A DNA stretch of 64,000 bases, from positions 62,001 to 126,000 of the forward strand of contig NZ_PDWO01000008.1 of assembly GCF_010211765.1 (NCBI RefSeq), read 5' to 3'. The notes beneath the pieces are model-generated. The model was not told the DNA's origin and ran no database searches. It saw nothing but the letters and a program-made list of their open reading frames with translations. The translations under genes were made by a program, and so were the position numbers. Every line of letters begins with the position of its first letter. The stretch's first letter is position 1. This stretch comes from Pseudoxanthomonas kaohsiungensis (GTDB lineage Bacteria; Pseudomonadota; Gammaproteobacteria; Xanthomonadales; Xanthomonadaceae). Shown here piece after piece: positions 13,405-40,803 of the stretch.

Positions 13405-13475
13405 GGCGGGCAGGGCGTGCGTCGGCTGCGGCCGTACGCCTGCTTCCCATGGTCTAGAAGCAGGAGCGCGGGCGC

Positions 13476-13601
13476 CGGAAGGAGTCCGCCAGCGCACGGG
13501 GTGTGGTCCATCCCTCGGGCAGGCGTCCTGCCTTTACTCGGGTCGTGGCACATCCATGTGCCACTTGGACCATCCCCCGTGCGGCGGCGGACGCCCTTCC
13601 G
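13476..13601 (+). repeat. Cruciform dispersed repeat, copy A
   Basis: A 126-nt element in the 340-nt gap before aroC. Its ends are imperfect inverted repeats (CGGAAGGAGTCCGCC ... GGCGGACGCCCTTCCG), extended inward by GCACGGGG on both arms. Inside are two smaller hairpins: GGCAGGCGTCCTGCC at 13518-13532 and GTGGCACATCCATGTGCCAC at 13545-13564. Related copies lie at 23833 and 24183. No reading frame is conserved between them. The rest of this gap holds no gene I can support. Confidence 0.8.
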
Positions 13602-13745
13602 AAGCGAGCGCTCTTGGCGCTTCTCACAGAAGGTGGAAACCGTTGCCAAGGCAACATTTCCCCCAGCCTGCCGCACTGCAGCAGTGGCGCCCGATATGCG
13701 ATCCTAGCCCGTCTTCCCACCGGTTCCCCTCCGCGGAGCGGCGTC

Positions 13746-14867
13746 TTGAGCAGCAACACCTTCGGCAAGCTGTTGTCGGTCACCACCTTCGGCGAATCGC
13801 ATGGCCCGGCCATCGGCTGCGTCGTCGATGGTTGCCCGCCCGGGCTGGAGATCGCAGCGGAGGAGTTCGCCCCCGACCTGGAGCGGCGCGCCACCGGCAA
13901 GAGCCGCCATACCTCCGCGCGGCGCGAGGCCGACGAGGTCGAGATCCTGTCCGGGGTTTACGAAGGCCGCACCACCGGCACGCCGATCGCGCTGCTGATC
14001 CGCAACACCGACGCGCGCAGCAAGGACTACGCGAACATCGCCGCGCAGTTCCGCCCCGGCCATGCCGACTACACCTACTGGCAGAAGTACGGCATCCGCG
14101 ACCCTCGCGGCGGTGGCCGCAGTTCGGCGCGCGAAACCACCATGCGCGTGGCCGCGGCGGTGATCGCCAAGAAGTGGCTGCGCCAGCGCTACGGCGTCAC
14201 CGTGCGCGGCTTCCTGTCCCAGCTCGGTGAGGTCAGGCCCGCGGGCTTCGAATGGAGCGCGGTGGAGGGCAACCCGTTCTTCTGGCCGCATGCGGCACAG
14301 GTGCCGGAACTCGAGGCGTACATGGACGCGCTGCGCAAGTCCGGCGATTCGGTCGGCGCGCGCGTCACCGTGGTGGCCGACGGCGTGCCGCCGGGCTGGG
14401 GCGAACCGATCTACGGCAAGCTAGACGGCGACCTGGCCGCCGCGCTGATGAGCATCAACGCGGTCAAGGGCGTGGAGATCGGCGACGGCTTCGACGTCGT
14501 CGCGCAGAAGGGCACCGTGCACCGCGACCTGATCGCGCCGGAGGGCTTCGCCAGCAACCATGCCGGCGGCATCCTCGGCGGCATCTCCACCGGCCAGCAG
14601 GTGGTGGCTTCGATCGCGCTCAAGCCGACGTCGAGCCTGCGCCTGCCCGGGCCGACGGTCGACCTGCACGGCGATCCGGTCGAAGTGGTCACCACCGGCC
14701 GCCATGATCCCTGCGTCGGCATCCGCGCCACCCCCATCGCCGAGGCGATGGTCGCGCTGGTGCTGATGGACCAGGCCCTGCGCCACCGCGCCCAGTGCGG
14801 GGATGTCGGCGAGGTCTCCCCGCGGATTCCGGCCGGTCCCGGCCTGGGCGAAGGCGGGCAGGACTAG
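13746..14867 (+). CDS. aroC: Chorismate synthase
   Basis: Last step of the shikimate pathway: 5-enolpyruvylshikimate-3-phosphate to chorismate, needing reduced FMN. The 373 aa start at a TTG with GGAG seven nt upstream, giving [20 protein letters not shown]; the frame extends further upstream, but only through the cruciform repeat. Family signatures [15 protein letters not shown]-like ([16 protein letters not shown]), [16 protein letters not shown] and [17 protein letters not shown] are all present. The 2-hydroxyacid dehydrogenase begins three nt after its stop, so the two are likely cotranscribed. Confidence 0.96.
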
Positions 14868-14870
14868 GCC

Positions 14871-15962
14871 ATGGCCGTCGCGCGTCCCCGCGTCTGGGTG
14901 TCGCAGCCGCTGTTCGACGACATCGTCGACCAGCTGGCGGCGCATTGCGACGTGGACGCCGTGGCGACGGTCACCGAACACGCGCCGGCCGACGTGGCCG
15001 CGGCGCTGCGCGACGCCGACGGCGCGCTGGTCACCCTCAACGAACGCATCGGCGCGGCCGAGCTGGCCACCGCGCCGCGACTGCGCGCGATCGCCAATGT
15101 CGGCGTCGGTTACAACAACCTGGACATCGATGCGCTCGATGCGCGCGGCATCATCGCGACCAACACGCCCGACGTGCTGACCGAGACCACGGCCGACCTG
15201 GGTTTCGCCCTGCTGATGGCGGCCGCGCGCCGGATCACCGAATCAGAGCGCTGGCTGCGCGAGGGGCAATGGAAGCAGTGGTCGTTCTCGACCATGCTCG
15301 GCGCCGACATCCATGGCAGCACGCTGGGCATCCTGGGCATGGGCCGGATCGGGCAGGCCATCGCCCGCCGCGGCCACCACGGCTTCGGCATGAAGGTGCT
15401 GTACCACAACCGGTCGCGCCTGCCCGAAACGGTGGAGCGCCAGGTCGGCGCGCGCCACGTGGGATTCGAAGAACTGCTGGCGCAGGCCGACCACCTGGTG
15501 CTGGTGCTGCCGTACTCGGCGGCCAGCCACCACATCATCGATGCCGCCGCACTGGCGCGGATGAAGCCGACCGCCACGCTGGTGAACGTCGCCCGCGGTG
15601 GCCTGGTCGACGAGCTGGCGCTGGCCGATGCGCTGGCCAACGGCCGCCTCGCGGCGGCTGGCCTGGACGTCTACGAAGGCGAGCCGGAGGTGCGGACGGA
15701 GCTTCTGGCGCTGCGCAACGTGGTGCTGACCCCGCACGTCGGCAGCGCCAGCCTGGCCACGCGCCGGGCGATGGTGCAGTTGGCGGTGGACAACCTGGCT
15801 GCCGCGCTGGGGTTCGGCCCGAACGCGGGCAATCCGCCCACGCCGGTCACCGCCAAGAAATCGACCATCGCCACTGCCGGCATTACCGGCGCGGGCAAAA
15901 CCGCCGCCGGCTCGATTACCGATATTGCCGGCGCGGGCAAAACCGCGGCCGGCAAACGGTAG
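14871..15962 (+). CDS. D-2-hydroxyacid dehydrogenase (glyoxylate/hydroxypyruvate reductase type)
   Basis: NAD(P)H-dependent reductase of the D-isomer 2-hydroxyacid dehydrogenase family; 363 aa. Cofactor loop GILGMGRIGQAIARR and the catalytic set Arg in VNVARGG, Glu in YEGEPE and His in LTPHVGSAS are present. NVGVGYNNLDIDALDARGI and the overall layout fit the GhrB subgroup. After the expected end (NPPTPV) there is an extra tail of about 36 residues in which GAGKTAAG occurs twice 14 residues apart. The neighbours aroC and asd suggest general metabolism; the substrate is not determined. Confidence 0.9.
   Translation: MAVARPRVWVSQPLFDDIVDQLAAHCDVDAVATVTEHAPADVAAALRDADGALVTLNERIGAAELATAPRLRAIANVGVGYNNLDIDALDARGIIATNTPDVLTETTADLGFALLMAAARRITESERWLREGQWKQWSFSTMLGADIHGSTLGILGMGRIGQAIARRGHHGFGMKVLYHNRSRLPETVERQVGARHVGFEELLAQADHLVLVLPYSAASHHIIDAAALARMKPTATLVNVARGGLVDELALADALANGRLAAAGLDVYEGEPEVRTELLALRNVVLTPHVGSASLATRRAMVQLAVDNLAAALGFGPNAGNPPTPVTAKKSTIATAGITGAGKTAAGSITDIAGAGKTAAGKR
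15888..15946 (+). repeat. In-gene direct repeat in dehydrogenase tail
   Basis: The 17-mer GGCGCGGGCAAAACCGC occurs at 15888-15904 and 15930-15946, exactly 42 nt apart, inside the coding sequence. It encodes the duplicated GAGKTAAG segment. Confidence 0.75.
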
Positions 15963-16095
15963 GGAACCTCCCAGGCGCTCGACGACACAGCCGAGCCGCA
16001 CCCCCGGAAGAGGTTCCCCGAACCCGGCCCGCACGCGCGCACCGCGCGACACCGCATCCAACTATCCCGATTACAGAACGGAACCGAGAACACCC

Positions 16096-17121
<1,026 letters not shown>

Positions 17122-17133
17122 GCCAGGCACGGT

Positions 17134-17163
17134 GACCGGCCGCGCGGAATCGCGCGGCCGGTC
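17134..17163 (+). terminator. Hairpin after asd
   Basis: A 13-bp perfect stem GACCGGCCGCGCG with a GAAT loop, 12 nt past the asd stop. It has no T tract, so termination strength is uncertain. Confidence 0.5.
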
Positions 17164-17187
17164 CACGGCCCCGATCGGTGCCGATGC

Positions 17188-17259
17188 GTAGAGCGGGGCT
17201 TGCCCCGCTGCGCTCGACGGGCCACGCGGGCGAAGGCAGCGGGGCAAGCCCCGCTCTAC
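17188..17259. repeat. Inverted REP pair between asd and fimV
   Basis: Two GTAG-type hairpins in opposite orientation at 17188-17209 and 17238-17259, with sequences identical to those of the pair at 6048-6113 but a different spacer. Confidence 0.85.
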
Positions 17260-17317
17260 GCGCGCGACCCGGGGGGGCGACCCCGCAGGTCGGCTGCTAA
17301 CAGGGCGGGGTGTCCGC

Positions 17318-17323
17318 TATAGT
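17318..17323 (+). promoter_or_regulatory. Candidate -10 box of fimV
   Basis: TATAGT ends seven nt before the ATG at 17331. If used, transcription would start at or next to the start codon, giving a leaderless mRNA. Confidence 0.4.
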
Positions 17324-17330
17324 GCGCCGC

Positions 17331-19061
17331 ATGAGAATCAGGGGACGGGGCGCCACGCGCCCATGGCACTGGCTGCTGGCCATCGGCCTGTCGCTGCTCA
17401 GCGGCGGCGCGATGGCGCTCGGACTGGGCCAGATCCGGGTGCTGTCGGCGCCCGGCCAGCCGCTGCTGGCCGAGATCCCGATCATCTCCAACGAGCCGGG
17501 CGAGCTGGAGAACGCGCGCGCGCGGCTGGCTTCGCCGGAAACCTTCGCCCGGGTCGGCCTGCAGCCGCCTTCGGGCCTGGTCAGCGACCTGCAGTTCGAG
17601 ATCGTGGCCGACGCGCAGGGCCGCGCGGTGGTCCGCGTCACCAGCAGCGCACCGGTCGACGTGCCGTCGCTGGGCTTCCTGGTCGAGGTCGATTGGGGCC
17701 AGGGCCGGCTGGTCCGCGAATACTCAGCCCTGGTGGCCGCACCGCAGACCGCCGCGGCGATCGAGGCGCCGGTGATCGAGGCACCGCGCGCGATGCCGTC
17801 CGACGCGATCGTCCGCGAGCCACAACCGGCGGCCGCCGCCGCCGAGACTGCGCCCGAGGCCGAGGCCGAACCCGTCGCCCCCGCGCCGGCGGCGCCCACC
17901 GCGCCCCGCGCCATGGCAAGCCCCGTCGCGCCTGCCGCCCCCGGGGAGCTCCTGATGCGGGTCGAGCGTGGCCAGACCCTGTCCCAGGTCGCCGCCGGCA
18001 TGGACCGCGGCGGACGCACCATCAACGAAGCGATGGTGGCCCTGCTGCGCGCCAATCCCGAGGCGTTCATCGGCGGCAACATCCATCGCGTCCGCGCAGG
18101 GGCCGAATTGCGCATGCCCGGCGACGCCGATTTCGGCCAGGCCGATGCGGCCGGCGCCGCGGCCCTGGTCCGCGAACAGACCGCGCAGTGGCGCCAGGCT
18201 GCGCGGCCGGTCCTGCAACCGGCCGAGGCAGGCGCGGCGACGGCGACCGCGTCGGTTGCCGACAGCCCGGCGGCGCCGTCGGCCAACGCGCCTTCCGGTG
18301 CGCGGCTCGAAATCGCACCGGCGGTCGCGGCGTCGGGTACCCAGGCAACAGAATCCGGACTCGGTACCGGTGGCGAGGGCGACATGCTGGCAAACGAACA
18401 ACTGCGCCAGGCCCAGGAAGACCTGGCCACGCGCGACTCGGAACTGGCGGAGCTGCGCAGCCGGGTCGAGGAACTGGAGAAGATGCAGCAGCAGCAGCTC
18501 AAGCTGATCGAGCTCAAGGACAGCGAGCTGGCGGCCGCGCAGCAGACCCTGGCGCGGACCAACGCCGCCGGCGCCGCCCAGGGTGGCGATTCCGCCGCCC
18601 CTGCCTGGCTTTGGGCCGGTGCCGGCCTGCTGGTGCTCGCCGCACTGGCCTGGTGGTTCGCGCGCCGGCCCAAGCCGAGTCCGATTCCGTCTTCACGTGG
18701 CCGCGGTTTCGATGCCGCGGCGCTGGCCGCGGCGCTGCCGCAGCCGGCGTCCGACCCGACGCTGGCGGTCGACGCCCCGGAGGAGGCACACCACGCACCG
18801 GAAGACGTCCCTTACCCGGCCCAGGCACATCCCGACGACGGCGCCGTGCCGGCATGGCACACCGGTGCCGCCGCGGGCGCGGGGATCGGCCTGGCTTCGT
18901 TGAATCCGTCCCCGGCTGGCCGCGAGCGCCTGGAACTGGCGATCGCCTACCTGGACCTGGGCGACGTGGAGACTGCGCGCTCGCTGCTGCACGAAGTGGC
19001 CGCCGGACACGACCCGTCCGCGCGCGACGAAGCGGCGCAGCTGCTGCGCGAGATCGGCTGA
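17331..19061 (+). CDS. fimV: FimV/HubP-family polar landmark protein
   Basis: Inner-membrane, peptidoglycan-interacting protein needed for type IV pilus function and polar organisation in relatives. The order is: signal peptide ending GGAMALGLG; the FimV N-terminal domain ([26 protein letters not shown]); a proline/alanine-rich linker; a LysM-like segment ([13 protein letters not shown]); a coiled coil ([20 protein letters not shown]); a transmembrane helix ([17 protein letters not shown]); and the C-terminal FimV motif [20 protein letters not shown]. At 576 aa it is short for the family. A GTG 21 nt earlier is in frame; ATG is chosen because the -10 box lies between them. Confidence 0.92.
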
Positions 19062-19077
19062 GCGGGAAGCGTCAGCC

Positions 19078-19851
19078 ATGCGTTATGCGCTGGGCGTCGA
19101 GTACGACGGCAGCGGCTTCCAGGGATGGCAGGGACTGGGGCCGTCCGGGCCGCCGACCGTGCAGGCCGCGCTCGAGGCCGCGCTGTCCTCGGTGGCCGAC
19201 CAGGCCATCACCGTGACCTGTGCGGGTCGCACCGACGCCGGCGTCCATGCCGAATGCCAGGTGGTGCACTTCGACAGCACCGCGCAGCGCGATCCGCGCG
19301 CGTGGACCCTGGGCGTCACCGGCCGGCTGCCGCCGGCCGTGTGCGTGCGCTGGTGCGTGCCGGTGCCGCTGGAATTCAACGCGCGTTTCTCGGCGCGGGC
19401 GCGCCGCTACCGCTACCGGCTGGTCAACCGCCAGGTCCGGCCGGCGCTCTATCGGCACATGATGGCGTGGGAGCGGCGGCGGCTGGATGCGGAGGCCATG
19501 CACCGCGCCGCCCAGGCGCTGCTGGGCGAGAACGACTTCAGCGCCTTCCGCACCGTGCACTGCCAGGCGCCGCACGCCCGCCGCGACCTGCAGGAGGTGC
19601 GGGTGCGCCGGGTCGGCGAGGTGGTGGAGATCGAAGTCCAGGCCAACGCATTCCTCCATCACATGGTCCGGAATATCGTGGGCTCGCTGCTGGAAGTGGG
19701 CGCGGGCGTGCGTGACGAGGGCTGGATCGCCCGCCTGCTGGCCGGGCGCGACCGCACCCTGGCCGGCCCGACCGCGCCGCCGCAGGGACTGGTGTTCCTG
19801 CACCCCCTGTATCCACGAGAATGGGGCCTGCCCGAGGAGGTGAGCCTGTGA
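19078..19851 (+). CDS. truA: tRNA pseudouridine(38-40) synthase
   Basis: Isomerises uridines 38-40 of the tRNA anticodon arm. The 257 aa carry the catalytic Asp53 in [11 protein letters not shown], the start motif [17 protein letters not shown], and the C-terminal block [19 protein letters not shown]. It begins 16 nt after fimV and overlaps trpF by four bases (GTGA), so fimV-truA-trpF probably form one transcript. Confidence 0.97.
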
Positions 19852-20504
19852 ACCGCACGCTGTACAGAACCCGGATCAAGTTCTGCGGCCTGACCCGCCC
19901 CGGCGACGTGCGCCTGGCCGGCGAACTCGGCGTGGACGCGGTCGGCTTCGTCTTAGCCCCCGACAGCCCGCGCCGGTTGACCGCCGTCGAGGCGCGCCAG
20001 TTGCGGCTGGCGCTGGCGCCGATGGTCAGCGTGGTCGCGCTGTTCCGCGACAACACCGCCACCGAGGTACGCGAGGTGGTGCGCCAGTTGCGTCCGTCGG
20101 TGCTGCAGTTCCACGGCGACGAGGACGACGCCTTCTGCCGTGCATTCCGGGTGCCCTGGATGAAGGCGATCCCGATGGCCAACGGCGAGGCCTGGGACGC
20201 GCGCACCTTGCAGCAGCGCTGGCCCCATGCCGACGGCTTCCTGTTCGACAGCCACGGCGCGGGCAAGGGGGGCGGCACCGGCAAGGCCTTCGACTGGAGC
20301 CGCATTCCGACCGGCCTGCACCGGCCGTTCGTGCTGGCCGGCGGCATCACGCCGGACAACGTGTTCGACGCGATCCACGCCACCCTGCCGTGGGCGGTCG
20401 ACGTAGCCAGCGGCATCGAGGTGTCGCCGGGCATCAAGGACGGCGAGAAGATGCGCCGGTTCGTCGCCGAAGTGCGCCGCGCCGACTGCGCCGAGCTCGA
20501 TTGA
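19848..20504 (+). CDS. trpF: Phosphoribosylanthranilate isomerase
   Basis: Third step of tryptophan synthesis from anthranilate. The 218 aa begin at a GTG that overlaps the truA stop and follows a GAGGAGG ribosome site. The general base Cys is in KFCGLTRP (residue 13), the acid Asp in VDVASGIE, and the phosphate-binding segment is [11 protein letters not shown]. The separation of trpF from other trp genes next to truA is the usual gammaproteobacterial arrangement; here trpBA follow after the divergent regulator. Confidence 0.97.
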
Positions 20505-20544
20505 GCCGGGCAGGTCACCAGTCCCCACGCACCGGTCGGACACC

Positions 20545-21438
20545 TCACCGGCCCGGCTGCAGCTCCGTGCGCAGCCACGTCGCCAGCGCCGGGATCCGCG
20601 CGTCGTCGCTGCCGCGCGTCGTGCACAGGGCCCATTGCCCGCCTGTTTCGACGAAGCCCCAGGGCGCGGCCAGGCGACCCTGGTCGAGGTCGGCCTGGAC
20701 CAGCTCCAGCGGCGCGATCGCCACCCCCAGCCCGGCCACGGCAGCCTCCAGCAGGTAGGTCAGGTGCTCGAACCCGGTGCCGGCGTTGGCATCGGCAGTT
20801 TCCAGGCCGTGCGCGGCGAACCAGCGCGGCCATGCCTGCGGCCGCGACCGTGTGTGCAGCCGCGGCGCGCCCCGCAATGCCGAAGGCGGCGCGTCCTGCA
20901 ACGCCGCCAGCTGCGCATGGCGCGGGCTCAGGACCGGACCGATGCGCTCCGGCGCCAGCGCATGCACCTGCCAGGACGAGGGCCACGGCGCTTCCCCGAG
21001 CAGCAGCGCCGCATCCAGTCCGGACAGCGCCGGATCGAAGCCTTCGCGCGCGGAGAAGTGCAGGGTGAGCGTCGGCAGCTCGGCCGACAGCCGCTCCAGG
21101 CGGGGGATCGCCCAGCGCGCCAACAGGCTGCCCGGGCAGCCCAGCACGAGCGCGGCCGCCGGTTCGCGCGCACGCTGCAGCGCCCCCCAGGTCGCCTGCA
21201 GGGTGGCGAACGCATCGCCGGCGGCATCACGCAGGCGCAGGCCGCGCGCGGTCAGGGCCAGGCCGCGCCCCTCCCGCTCGAACAGTGGCGCGCCGAGCGC
21301 CTCTTCCAGGCTGCGGACATGGCGGCTGATCGCGCCGTGGGTGACGTGCAGTTCGGCCGCCGCCCGGCTCAGGCTGCCCAGTCGGGCCGCCGCCTCGAAG
21401 GCGCGCAGGGCGTTGAGCGGGGGCAGGGTCCGCGACAT
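20545..21438 (-). CDS. trpI: LysR-type regulator, TrpI-like
   Basis: DNA-binding regulator of 297 aa: N-terminal winged helix (LNALRAFEAAARLGSLSRAA then VTHGAISRHVRSLEE) and an effector domain with periplasmic-binding fold. It is transcribed divergently from trpB with 95 nt between, exactly the trpI/trpBA layout of Pseudomonas, where indoleglycerol phosphate is the inducer. That position, plus the GcvA/TrpI-type start LPPLNALRAFEAAAR, supports TrpI. The effector is inferred, not visible. It converges on trpF. Confidence 0.82.
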   Translation of the reverse strand: MSRTLPPLNALRAFEAAARLGSLSRAAAELHVTHGAISRHVRSLEEALGAPLFEREGRGLALTARGLRLRDAAGDAFATLQATWGALQRAREPAAALVLGCPGSLLARWAIPRLERLSAELPTLTLHFSAREGFDPALSGLDAALLLGEAPWPSSWQVHALAPERIGPVLSPRHAQLAALQDAPPSALRGAPRLHTRSRPQAWPRWFAAHGLETADANAGTGFEHLTYLLEAAVAGLGVAIAPLELVQADLDQGRLAAPWGFVETGGQWALCTTRGSDDARIPALATWLRTELQPGR

Positions 21439-21533
21439 GTGACTTTTCCTGAAGAGTCGTGACAATAGTATCGGTTTCCAGGCAATGAATCGTGCGCTAG
21501 GCTGACATCCCGTAGCGCCCCTCCGGACTCTCC
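21439..21533. promoter_or_regulatory. Divergent trpI-trpB control region
   Basis: The only AT-richer stretch between the divergent genes includes GTCGTGACAATAGTATCGG near 21458, with a possible -10 for trpI on the minus strand. A LysR-type operator is expected here by analogy with Pseudomonas; I cannot pick the T-N11-A box with confidence. Confidence 0.4.
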
Positions 21534-22741
<1,208 letters not shown>

Positions 22742-22745
<4 letters not shown>

Positions 22746-22764
22746 GAGCCGATTCATCGGCGAC
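22742..22764 (+). repeat. Single REP element overlapping trpB stop
   Basis: Begins GTAGGAGCCGATTC and closes ATCGGCGAC. The same sequence, inverted, is the minus-strand unit of the tandem pairs at 10489-10799. Its GTAG supplies the last base of the final trpB sense codon and the stop. Confidence 0.85.
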
Positions 22765-22860
22765 CCGATCCCCCTCCAACGCCGCCACCCAACGCGACGC
22801 CTGGCGAACAGGCGTCCACCCGTGCCCCGACAGGCGCGACCCCGGACCCACAGGCCACCC

Positions 22861-23664
22861 ATGAGCCGCTTCGAGAACAAGTTCGCGCAACTGCGTGCCG
22901 CCGGCCGCAAGGCCCTGATCCCCTTTTTTACCGCCGGCGACCCGTCGCTGGAAGCGACCGTGCCGGTGATGCACGCGCTGGTGGAGGCCGGCGCCGATGT
23001 CATCGAGCTGGGCGTGGCGTTTTCCGATCCGATGGCCGACGGCCCGGTGATCCAGCGCAGCTCCGAGCGCGCGCTGGCGCGTGGTGCGGGTACCGGCTAC
23101 GTGTTCGAATGCGTGCGCCGCTTCCGCCAGCGCGATGCCGATACGCCGGTGGTGCTGATGGGGTACCTCAATCCGGTGGAGATCCGCGGCGCGGCGCGCT
23201 TCGCCCGCGAGGCGGTCGCCGCCGGCGTCGATGGCGTGCTGCTGGTCGACCTGCCGCCGGAAGAGGCGGGCGAATTCCAGCAGGCCTTCGATGCCGCCGG
23301 CCTGGCCCTGGTGATGCTGGCCTCGCCGACGACCTCGCCGGCGCGCGCGGCGATGCTGAGCGCGAACGCGCAAGGCTATCTCTACTACGTCAGCTACGCC
23401 GGCGTGACCGGAGCGGATCGCCTGGACACGCAGGTCGCCGGTCGCCGGCTGCAGGAGCTGCGCGCCGCGGCGAAGGTGCCGGTGGTGGCCGGGTTCGGCA
23501 TCAAGGATGCCGCCAGCGCCGCGGCGATGGCGGTCGACGCCGATGGCGTGGTGGTCGGCAGCGCGCTGGTGTCGATGCTGGCCGATGCGGCGGATCCGGA
23601 GGCGGCCGCGGGGCGGGCGCGCGAGTTCCTGGCGCCATTGCGGCAGGCCGTGGACGCGGGCTGA
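22861..23664 (+). CDS. trpA: Tryptophan synthase alpha chain
   Basis: Cleaves indoleglycerol phosphate and channels indole to TrpB. The 267 aa have catalytic Glu49 (VIELGVAFSDP) and Asp60 (MADGP), plus the loop YVSYAGVTGAD and the phosphate-binding GFGIKDAA. The frame is open upstream as far as trpB but MSRFENKFAQL is the standard start. It is followed by the long repeat block. Confidence 0.97.
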   Translation: MSRFENKFAQLRAAGRKALIPFFTAGDPSLEATVPVMHALVEAGADVIELGVAFSDPMADGPVIQRSSERALARGAGTGYVFECVRRFRQRDADTPVVLMGYLNPVEIRGAARFAREAVAAGVDGVLLVDLPPEEAGEFQQAFDAAGLALVMLASPTTSPARAAMLSANAQGYLYYVSYAGVTGADRLDTQVAGRRLQELRAAAKVPVVAGFGIKDAASAAAMAVDADGVVVGSALVSMLADAADPEAAAGRAREFLAPLRQAVDAG

Positions 23665-23685
23665 GCCTGAGGGAGCGGATGCAGT

Positions 23686-23817
23686 AGCAACTGCAGGAGC
23701 AACTGCAGGAGCAACTGCAGGAGCAACTGCAGGAGCAACTGCAGGAGCAACTGCAGGAGCAACTGCAGGAGCAACTGCAGGAGCAACTGCAGGAGCAACT
23801 GCAGGAGCAACTGCAGT
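23686..23817. repeat. 12-bp tandem repeat, 11 units
   Basis: Eleven head-to-tail copies of AGCAACTGCAGG, perfect except that the last ends in T. Each holds a CTGCAG palindrome. It starts 21 nt after the trpA stop. The unit length keeps all frames open, but no start, ribosome site or partner frame suggests a protein. Confidence 0.95.
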
Positions 23818-23832
23818 GGGGCACGCGGGCTT

Positions 23833-23956
23833 CGGAGGGAGTCCGCCGTCGCCTGGGGGAATGGCCCATCCCTCGGGACGACATCCTGTCTTTACTCGGG
23901 TCGTGGCACATCCATGTGCCACTTGGTCCATTCCCCCAGGCAACGACGGACTTCCG
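23833..23956 (+). repeat. Cruciform dispersed repeat, copy B
   Basis: A 124-nt relative of copy A in the same orientation. The arms here read CCGTCGCCTGGGGGAATGG on the left and, as complement, CGTTGCCTGGGGGAATGG on the right. The inner palindrome GTGGCACATCCATGTGCCAC at 23903-23922 is identical to copy A. The outer arms differ from copy A yet still pair with each other. Confidence 0.85.
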
Positions 23957-24002
23957 TGCGGTTCCGGCTCGTCACTTCGTCCTGGACGAAGAATCCTCGG
24001 TA

Positions 24003-24050
24003 GCCGCAGCCGCAGCCGCAGCCGCAGCCACCGACACCGACACCGACACT
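24003..24050. repeat. Hexamer runs (GCCGCA)n and (ACCGAC)n
   Basis: About four and a half copies of GCCGCA followed directly by about three and a half copies of ACCGAC, between cruciform copies B and C. No gene is recognised. Confidence 0.8.
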
Positions 24051-24182
24051 GTGACCGTCACCGTCCTGCTCGTTGGGAGGGTGCGCTGGCGTCATGGGCA
24101 ACAAGCACTGATCGCGGTCCCGCCGCGGCCATGGCCTTGCTGCTTTGAAGGACGTCACCGAAGGCAATCCCCCCAACGTCGC

Positions 24183-24307
24183 CGAAGGCCGTCGTTGCCG
24201 TAGGGGATGGCCCAAGTGGCACATGGATGTGCCACGGCCCTTCGTAAAGACAGGACGTCGTCCCGAAGGGTGGGCCATCCCCTGCGGCAACGGCGGACTC
24301 CTTCCGA
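24183..24307 (-). repeat. Cruciform dispersed repeat, copy C
   Basis: Third copy, inverted relative to A and B. The arms read CGTTGCCGTAGGGGATGGCCCA and, as complement of the other side, CGTTGCCGCAGGGGATGGC. The palindrome occurs as its complement at 24216-24235. Inner flanks CCCTTCGGG and CGAAGGG also pair here, unlike the sequence in copies A and B. Confidence 0.85.
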
Positions 24308-24332
24308 AGCCAACGCCGCAGGATGCTTTTTC

Positions 24333-24371
24333 GCAGTTGCAGTTGCAGTTGAAGCCGCAACCGCAACCGCG
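24333..24371. repeat. Hexamer runs (GCAGTT)3 and (CCGCAA)3
   Basis: Three copies of GCAGTT followed by three of CCGCAA, ending six nt before the ogt stop codon. Confidence 0.8.
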
Positions 24372-39837: not shown

Positions 39838-40803
39838 TCAGTCCACCAGCTGCTTGGCCTCGGAGATGCCGAGCACTTCCGGGTGCTGCACCTCGGCCGG
39901 CGCGGGCTTGCGGCCGCGGCGCGAGAGCAGCGGGTCGAGGAACACCGCGCCGAGGATGATCGCCACGCCCAGGTAGAACAGCGGGGTCAACTCGCGCTGT
40001 TCGCCCAGCAGCAGCGCCGCCAGCACGATCGCGTAGACCGGTTCCAGGTTGGTCGCCAGCTGCACCGTGTAGGCGCTGAGGTGGCGCAGCGCGACCAGCG
40101 ACAGCGCGAACGGCAGCAGGGTACAGCCCAGCGACAGCACCAGCAGCAGCGCGCCGTCGCGCAGCCCAGGCAGGACCAGGAGGTCGCCGGCGAAGGCCGG
40201 CAACAGCAGCGGCATCAGCGGCGCGAGCAGGGTCAGCGCCAGGGTGCCGGCCCCGAGCTCGATGCCGGTAACCGTCAACGGGTCGGCGTGTTCGACCAGG
40301 CGCTTGTTGAACGAACCGAAGGCGGCCACCAGCAGGGCCGACAGCGCCCCCACGGCGACGCCCAGGCGCATGCCATCGGGCACGCCGCCGACCACCAGCG
40401 CCACGCCCGGCAGCACCGCCACGCCCAGCGCCAGTTCGCGCGGGCGGAAGGGGCGTCGCGCGACCCACGGCTCGATCACCGCCGTGAACACCGGGGCCAG
40501 CGCGATGCAGGTGGCCGCCACCGAGGCATTGGCAAGCTTGATCGCGCCGTAGAAGGTCAGCCAGTGCAGGGCTACCAGCACGCCGATGCCGGCATAGGCC
40601 AGCACCAGCCGCGGCGGCAACGCGCGCAGCCCGCGCCACACGCGCGGGATCAGGGCCAGCGCCGCCACGACCAGCAGCATCCGCCACCACACCAGCGGCA
40701 ACGCGGGCAGGCTGATCAGCTTGCCCAGGATCGCGGTGAAGCCCCACAACAGGACGCAGAAATGGATTTGCAGTTGGGCGCGGGTGCGATCGGAGGTCGG
40801 CAT
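39838..40803 (-). CDS. EamA-family DMT transporter
   Basis: Inner-membrane exporter of the drug/metabolite transporter superfamily, 321 aa, ten predicted helices in two EamA repeats (1-150 and 165-300). VALHWLTFYGAIKLANASVAAT and the second-repeat ending YLGVAIILGAVFLDPLL are characteristic. The C-terminus is a short charged tail with no known role. The substrate cannot be told from sequence. A distinct EamA protein is encoded at 48333-49244. Confidence 0.9.
   Translation of the reverse strand: MPTSDRTRAQLQIHFCVLLWGFTAILGKLISLPALPLVWWRMLLVVAALALIPRVWRGLRALPPRLVLAYAGIGVLVALHWLTFYGAIKLANASVAATCIALAPVFTAVIEPWVARRPFRPRELALGVAVLPGVALVVGGVPDGMRLGVAVGALSALLVAAFGSFNKRLVEHADPLTVTGIELGAGTLALTLLAPLMPLLLPAFAGDLLVLPGLRDGALLLVLSLGCTLLPFALSLVALRHLSAYTVQLATNLEPVYAIVLAALLLGEQRELTPLFYLGVAIILGAVFLDPLLSRRGRKPAPAEVQHPEVLGISEAKQLVD

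Follow-up and report, generated by a model that had tools for sequence, protein, structure and literature searches.

Two GGA-tipped hairpins in a dispersed, paired intergenic repeat of Pseudoxanthomonas kaohsiungensis as candidate RsmA sites

Three copies of an element, here called modules A, B and C, lie in a stretch of 64,000 nucleotides (nt) of the 3.76 Mb genome of Pseudoxanthomonas kaohsiungensis (G000:C82:62001-126000, referred to as the window). Their outer arms pair within each copy but differ from copy to copy, which raises the question of what keeps the arms complementary while their sequence changes. The original prediction, made from the letters of the window, described a cruciform element in which structure rather than sequence is selected or corrected. 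A covariance model found the three copies at the predicted places and refined their limits. The compensating arms are real, and they belong to a paired repeat that is found across the bacterial family and resembles REPINs, the inverted doublets of repetitive extragenic palindromic (REP) sequences. With slightly more belief than doubt, we read the copies as modules of a dispersed REPIN-like intergenic element whose outward-read RNA would offer two RsmA-type sites and act via RsmA.

Covarying fold and hairpin tips

Each module folds as a three-way junction of about 135 nt, in which a long variable stem (P1) leads to two hairpins, P2/P2b and P3. In the orientation used by the original prediction, the 5′ part reads GGCTYCGG-GGGGCCGCCG or GGAGTCCGCC and is followed by the variable arm, P2 with the inner P2b, P3, the returning arm, CGNCGTCCTCGG and a conserved tail that extends to about GTGGCTTCGATCG. 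The RNA fold of each copy was equalled by none of 200 shuffled sequences (z scores in Table 1), and the same held for the opposite strand of C, with a z score of -9.1. In terms of folding energy, the + strand of C reaches -93.2 kcal/mol versus -84.5 kcal/mol for the other strand.

With small changes allowed, the core palindrome occurs at 45 places in the host genome, and a search of public contigs with the core pattern returned 74 matches on 65 stretches, all from Pseudoxanthomonas. Ten of these 74 matches overran their stretch, leaving 109 complete copies at the start (45 from the host, 64 others). Removal of near-duplicates (>93% identical) and of the one-side-replaced L073, L083, L087 and L093 gave 67, and three more (one copy each at L036, L039 and L058) were removed by hand. 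The remaining 64 modules were aligned with MAFFT without fitting to the structure (alignment A4). In A4, 89.7% of the cells pair compared with 76.7% in shuffles, and double-sided changes occupy 378 cells compared with 101, neither value being reached in any of 500 shuffles. Overall, no shuffle of 500 was as high on three of the five main measures of covariation, while a weaker measure, further pair types, was equalled by 27 of 500. Slid registers pair at 39-44% only. Every Watson-Crick pair type occurs in the arms and intermediates are few; mismatches persist at fixed places, for example C.T and C.A low in P1. The covariation is thus genome-wide and no accident of three copies, and selection of structure rather than sequence is supported both by it and by the changes between orthologous modules described below. 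Simple segmental duplication was rejected, because the arms differ and covary genome-wide.

A covariance model (R1) built from the 64 modules detected 72 modules of at least 63 bits in the host genome; 33 opposite-strand shadows below 50 bits were left out of the counts. The search of the fetched host loci gave 73 modules, of which 7 were new. The copy-number search that had been proposed therefore yields at least 79 modules, a lower bound since scoring covered only the best 150 of 3167 first-look candidates. The 73 modules lie at 41 loci, 29 of which carry one +/- pair, one carries +++- and 11 carry a single module. All 30 multi-module loci are inward-facing, with gaps of 76-479 nt within pairs, so that a composite consists of two facing modules and a variable spacer and spans about 340-750 nt in total. 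Judged by eye, the partners in a pair are of different module types which recur together.

One rule describes the tips of both inner hairpins. In the model alignments, the + strand of the P2b tip follows C(N)TCC(N)TG in 72/73 host and 62/65 other modules, and that of the P3 tip follows C(N)TCCNTG in 72/73 and 64/65, respectively; both hairpins obey in 71/73 host modules and in 61/65 modules from the genus and other genera. On the reverse strand the rule becomes CA(N)GGA(N)G, read as CANGGANG or CAGGANG. The GGA itself is found in every P2b tip (73/73 and 65/65) and in P3 at 72/73 and 64/65, and the exceptions to the rule are four P2b tips with a single change beside an intact GGA and two P3 tips with one GGA letter altered. 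The distance from GGA to GGA is 23-27 nt in 136 of 138 modules, the script having detected one GGA in the other two. In the 18 modules from other genera, most stem letters have changed while the tips are kept, with ACAGGAUGU at the P2b tip in 12 and A(U/C/G)GGAUG at the P3 tip in all 18. The palindrome GTGGCACATCCATGTGCCAC, which looked invariant in the window, is not so across the family: facing partners have other stems and the same tip. A hand-made two-hairpin descriptor with stems of at least 5 pairs, applied to 254,435 bases, gave 30 hits, all of them inside modules and none elsewhere. With the minimum lowered to 4 pairs, both tips were found in 32 of the 73 modules and one tip in 40, a low yield caused by interrupted P2b stems, and the tip counts were therefore taken from the model alignments.

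In the part of PMC7652899 drawn on here, CsrA sites are given as CAGGA(U/A/C)G in CsrB, as an ANGGAN hexaloop in RsmE complexes and, from systematic evolution of ligands by exponential enrichment (SELEX), as RUACARGGAUGU. According to the same source, one CsrA dimer bridges two sites 10-63 nt apart, a range that the spacing of 23-27 nt fits. What appears to be new here is that a single tip rule is common to both inner hairpins and matches the loop bound by CsrA/RsmA.

Strand bias and the RsmA explanation

In principle, a fold that works on one strand should tolerate G.U wobbles on that strand and not on the other. In the P1 core (26 pairs), wobble cells on the GGA strand versus the other strand numbered 84 v 7, 109 v 1 and 89 v 8 in alignments A4, A5 and A6, respectively. 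Counted by columns, the values were 14 v 3, 21 v 0 and 15 v 4, with sign tests of 0.013, 9.5e-7 and 0.019, which are not clean probabilities because columns and copies are related. The folding energy is lower on the GGA strand in 67/73 host and 55/65 other modules. Furthermore, eight orthologous module pairs, with helix-end pairs excluded, show 17 wobble changes on the GGA strand and 4 on the other, together with 13 compensatory doubles and 11 mismatches. Judging from the bias in the P1 core, selection seems to act on a single-stranded fold of the reverse strand. The bias also speaks against two other accounts, a purely double-stranded cruciform and repair by symmetric template switching. The cruciform of the original prediction thus gives way to a fold on one strand, opposite to the orientation chosen there, while both the bias of wobbles towards one strand and the GGA tips favour the structured RNA that it listed as an option.

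In the RsmA-based explanation, each module would be selected for its single-stranded fold on the strand reading outward from the spacer, and this fold would work as RNA in 3′ untranslated regions (3′-UTR) or read-through transcripts. Read-through from either side would carry the far module in the GGA sense, and a single RsmA/CsrA dimer may grip both loops of one module. Tens of modules could then serve as distributed RsmA docking sites, which would titrate RsmA or flag the ends of transcripts whose stability depends on RsmA. All 17 genus genomes encode CsrA (PF02599), with three matches in the host. Besides the canonical gene, the host carries two divergent extra CsrA-family genes (G000:C77:5027-5185 and 40009-40161); each of the remaining 16 genomes of the genus has a single gene, that of G011 in two pieces.

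Several points weigh against this explanation. The four pairs at helix ends were dropped post hoc, on the assumption that these ends are unpaired in the RNA, and they (two basal and two junction pairs) show the reversed bias, with 1 v 74 (A4), 0 v 96 (A5) and 1 v 65 (A6). With all 50 pairs included, the counts are 93 v 102, 113 v 118 and 102 v 80, and P2/P2b/P3 alone gave 8 v 21, 4 v 21 and 12 v 7, some of these cells lying in loop columns at which any base fits the motif. Strand-biased deamination could mimic the wobble bias. The conservation of P3 is partly ascertained, since the first collection used the P3 palindrome and R1 was built from it; the P2b tip lay outside the criteria of that collection, yet follows the same rule. 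Most CsrA SELEX ligands have at most 4 contiguous pairs, as stated in the part of PMC7652899 used, compared with about 8 in the P3 stems. In addition, 2 of the 17 CsrA-carrying genus genomes lack the module, a sigma-70-like promoter was not found around B/C, and decayed copies exist (43 bits at the site of module A in G006; the left module of L118).

Pairs, turnover and mobility

A first alternative, which we regard as unlikely, is that the family is purely mobile DNA, i.e., a non-autonomous element of the REPIN or terminal inverted repeat (TIR) type with single-stranded DNA hairpin tips recognised by some transposase and no RNA function. Its architecture of pairs with variable spacers fits such an element. 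Four related composites (L009, L025, L031 and L033) have both modules in common at 90-99% identity, while their spacers are 53-93% and their outer flanks 36-51% identical. We read this as probable copying of the whole pair, after which the modules were constrained or converted. No target-site duplication was seen by eye at these four composites, and the empty sites were too diverged for exact junctions. In the identity comparison of orthologues, gap columns numbered 0-12 in modules, 8-155 in spacers and 26-210 in outer flanks, too many to derive a reliable rate. Just outside some modules, namely in L031 and upstream of the modules in L009, L012 and L030, the outer end (AGCGTCGGCTTCGG and neighbours) is accompanied by extra partial copies of itself in tandem.

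Presence and absence at orthologous sites also suits mobile DNA. Modules are present in 15/17 genus genomes and in 97/297 family genomes, distributed over 19 of 54 genera. Model R2 (E<=0.001) matched 15 of 369 class genomes, three of them above 50 bits and all three within the family; the remaining 12, at 30-40 bits, were taken as generic hairpins by score alone. The site of A was searched at one locus per genome in the host and 16 relatives (E<=0.01). Besides the host, four of the 16 relatives carry modules there: G015 (107.9 bits), G006 (43.2 bits, decayed), G014 with a facing pair (122.0 and 116.6 bits) and G003 (123.2 bits) in opposite orientation, while the other 12 gave no match at this threshold. 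At the site of B/C, modules occur in the host only (0/16 relatives; 30 loci in 17 genomes), where the flanking genes are not adjacent in G007 and G016 was matched on the trpA side only. Therefore, the element is gained and lost, and it reached site A on more than one occasion. At the site downstream of trpA, L155 (G014) and L170 (G012) hold unrelated repeat arrays with units GTAGGAGCTGGCTTCAGCC and GTAGCCCGGATAAGGCCGCAGGCCGCATCCGGG, which resemble GTAG-type REPs.

The transposase evidence points the other way. Y1 transposases (PF01797) are found in 15/17 genus genomes, yet G001 carries modules without a Y1 gene, G007 carries a Y1 gene without a module, and Y1 is missing from 6 of the 19 other genomes with modules. 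None of 50 Y1 loci, with flanks of about 1.5 kb where the contig allows, carries a module. Because of these empty loci and the modules in Y1-less genomes, a link to REP- or TIR-associated tyrosine transposases (RAYT, TIRYT) is unsupported, and mobilisation by them was rejected. The non-autonomous mobile element of the original prediction thus stands in so far as the modules are dispersed, present or absent at orthologous sites and apparently copied as pairs, and falls short in that no transposase is linked to them. Also against purely mobile DNA, the tips fit the CsrA consensus, free positions included, and solitary modules keep high scores (142 bits at L012, 144 bits at L019), unlike decayed REP singlets.

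Stenotrophomonas maltophilia belongs to the same bacterial family as the host. Its TIR families, as portrayed in part of PMC3733652, are the closest published repeats, likened by description only. TIRtron/TIRYT repeats (S. maltophilia open reading frame ORF 1152) are self-complementary, long and often close dimers (PMC3733652), whereas no module lies beside any tested Y1 gene. REPINs and GTAG REPs, in the portions of PMC3116915 and PMC3733652 considered, are likewise extragenic inverted doublets with a variable spacer and compensatory stem changes. In comparison with REPINs, which are palindromes of 20-40 bp, the modules are three-way junctions of about 135 nt, have no RAYT linkage and remain undecayed when solitary. 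The GTAG tetranucleotide beside the palindrome was not seen in the module consensus, a point for which no dedicated test was made. Elsewhere in the window, a 31-nt inverted repeat at 17186-17261 (94% complementary, 14-nt gap, start GCGTAGAGCGGGGCTTGCCCCGC) resembles a GTAG-type REP pair.

Gene context, related RNAs and the copies in the window

A simple gene caller based on codon usage places all 41 loci between genes, 20 of them convergent, 19 tandem and 2 divergent. At 39 loci the element adjoins the 3′ end of one gene or of two, a preference that also speaks for the RsmA-based explanation. This arrangement, the very stable folds and the presence of a terminator-like site ahead of the element at only 7 of the 59 gene 3′ ends facing one would suit a transcript-end element. 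Its fold in the 3′-UTR would protect against exonucleases or terminate transcription, a role already suggested for REPs, and its tips would bind another protein or none. Such an element does not call for a GGA tip shared by both hairpins, nor for two modules in a fixed orientation, and we consider it improbable. Template-switch or quasi-palindrome correction during replication, which is reportedly described in one study for RNA hairpins, would keep the arms complementary without functional selection. The use of all Watson-Crick pair types with few intermediates suits it, but it is very improbable, as it predicts no strand bias (109 v 1 in the P1 core), fixed-place mismatches persist and the loops are conserved.

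For the RsmA-based explanation, known RNAs offer partial parallels. CsrB/RsmZ-type RNAs likewise have GGA loops, CAGGA(U/A/C)G and ANGGAN tips and at least two dimer-spaced sites in the account of PMC7652899 used here, whereas a module combines two sites within a three-way junction, occurs in many scattered copies that face each other and has no known promoter. TwoAYGGAY (RF01731) and Bacillaceae-1 (RF01690) also carry two hairpins with CsrA-like loops and were proposed as CsrA binders; in the excerpted part of PMC4333381, these motifs are described for other bacterial groups. Neither gave an Rfam match at E up to 10 on B/C (23780-24360). Throughout the window, all Rfam families stayed below their gathering scores; at loose thresholds the matches were mainly long hairpins of the microRNA type, likewise below gathering score, and a few weak small-RNA matches, such as a 16-nt RsmV fragment (10.8 bits; gathering 100).

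RsmU of Xanthomonas campestris is a GGA-bearing, RsmA-binding RNA processed from the comEA 3′-UTR, as reported in the part of PMC7694677 drawn on. Identity with RsmU was rejected, since no module was found at 15 comEA loci of genus g7, a genus with large genomes, nor at that of G004; the comEA match of the host is weak (17 bits). At this host locus (L280), two gene-sense CAGGACG hairpins lie at 1917-1937 and 1984-1998, about 230-310 nt past the start of the matched domain. No open-literature paper was found that joins CsrA with mobile, repetitive or extragenic palindromic elements, which is weak evidence of novelty as most subscription literature lay outside the searches. Open-literature searches for CsrA with miniature inverted repeats and for Pseudoxanthomonas with intergenic palindromes returned general papers only, judging by the listings.

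Table 1. Modules, hairpins and spacer in the window (positions counted from its first letter)
Feature	Position	Strand	Basis
Module A, solitary at its host locus	13472..13605	+ (folded strand -)	model match 99.7 bits; fold z -7.6
P3 hairpin of A	13545..13564	-	reverse-strand tip CAUGGAUG; sequence and tip rule
P2b hairpin of A	13518..13532	-	reverse-strand tip CAGGACG; sequence and tip rule
Module B, left half of the composite	23830..23963	+ (folded strand -)	model match 122.9 bits; fold z -6.6
P3 hairpin of B	23903..23922	-	reverse-strand tip CAUGGAUG; sequence and tip rule
P2b tip hairpin of B	23880..23890	-	reverse-strand GACAGGAUGUC; sequence and tip rule
B-C spacer, 211 nt, variable, short simple repeats	23964..24174	.	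gap length and sequence
Module C, right half of the composite	24175..24309	- (folded strand +)	model match 137.4 bits; fold z -7.6
P3 hairpin of C	24216..24235	+	+ strand tip CAUGGAUG; sequence and tip rule
P2b tip hairpin of C	24249..24259	+	+ strand GACAGGACGUC; sequence and tip rule

Module A is flanked by a methyltransferase-domain gene (PF05175) and the chorismate synthase gene (PF01264), both on the + strand. The neighbours of B/C are convergent and encode the tryptophan synthase alpha chain (PF00290) and an O6-methylguanine DNA methyltransferase (PF01035). B and C had been placed face to face inside a block of tandem repeats; they do face each other, as the halves of one composite, and the array lies to the left of B, where a 12-bp unit (CTGCAGGAGCAA) is repeated about eleven times over 23679-23822, immediately next to the module. 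Short simple repeats also flank several other modules.

If the RsmA-based explanation is true, it would join two fields that are usually separate, namely dispersed extragenic palindromes, the function of which is debated, and the Csr/Rsm system. It also provides a testable account of how stems covary while loops stay fixed in a bacterial repeat family. A bolder extension, which we put forward tentatively and with more doubt than belief, is that a mobile repeat may have spread the docking site of a global regulator genome-wide, creating a tunable RsmA sponge or a 3′-UTR regulon that varies between species and in which individual copies are under selection. In that case, the load of RsmA sites could shift between species through repeat turnover.

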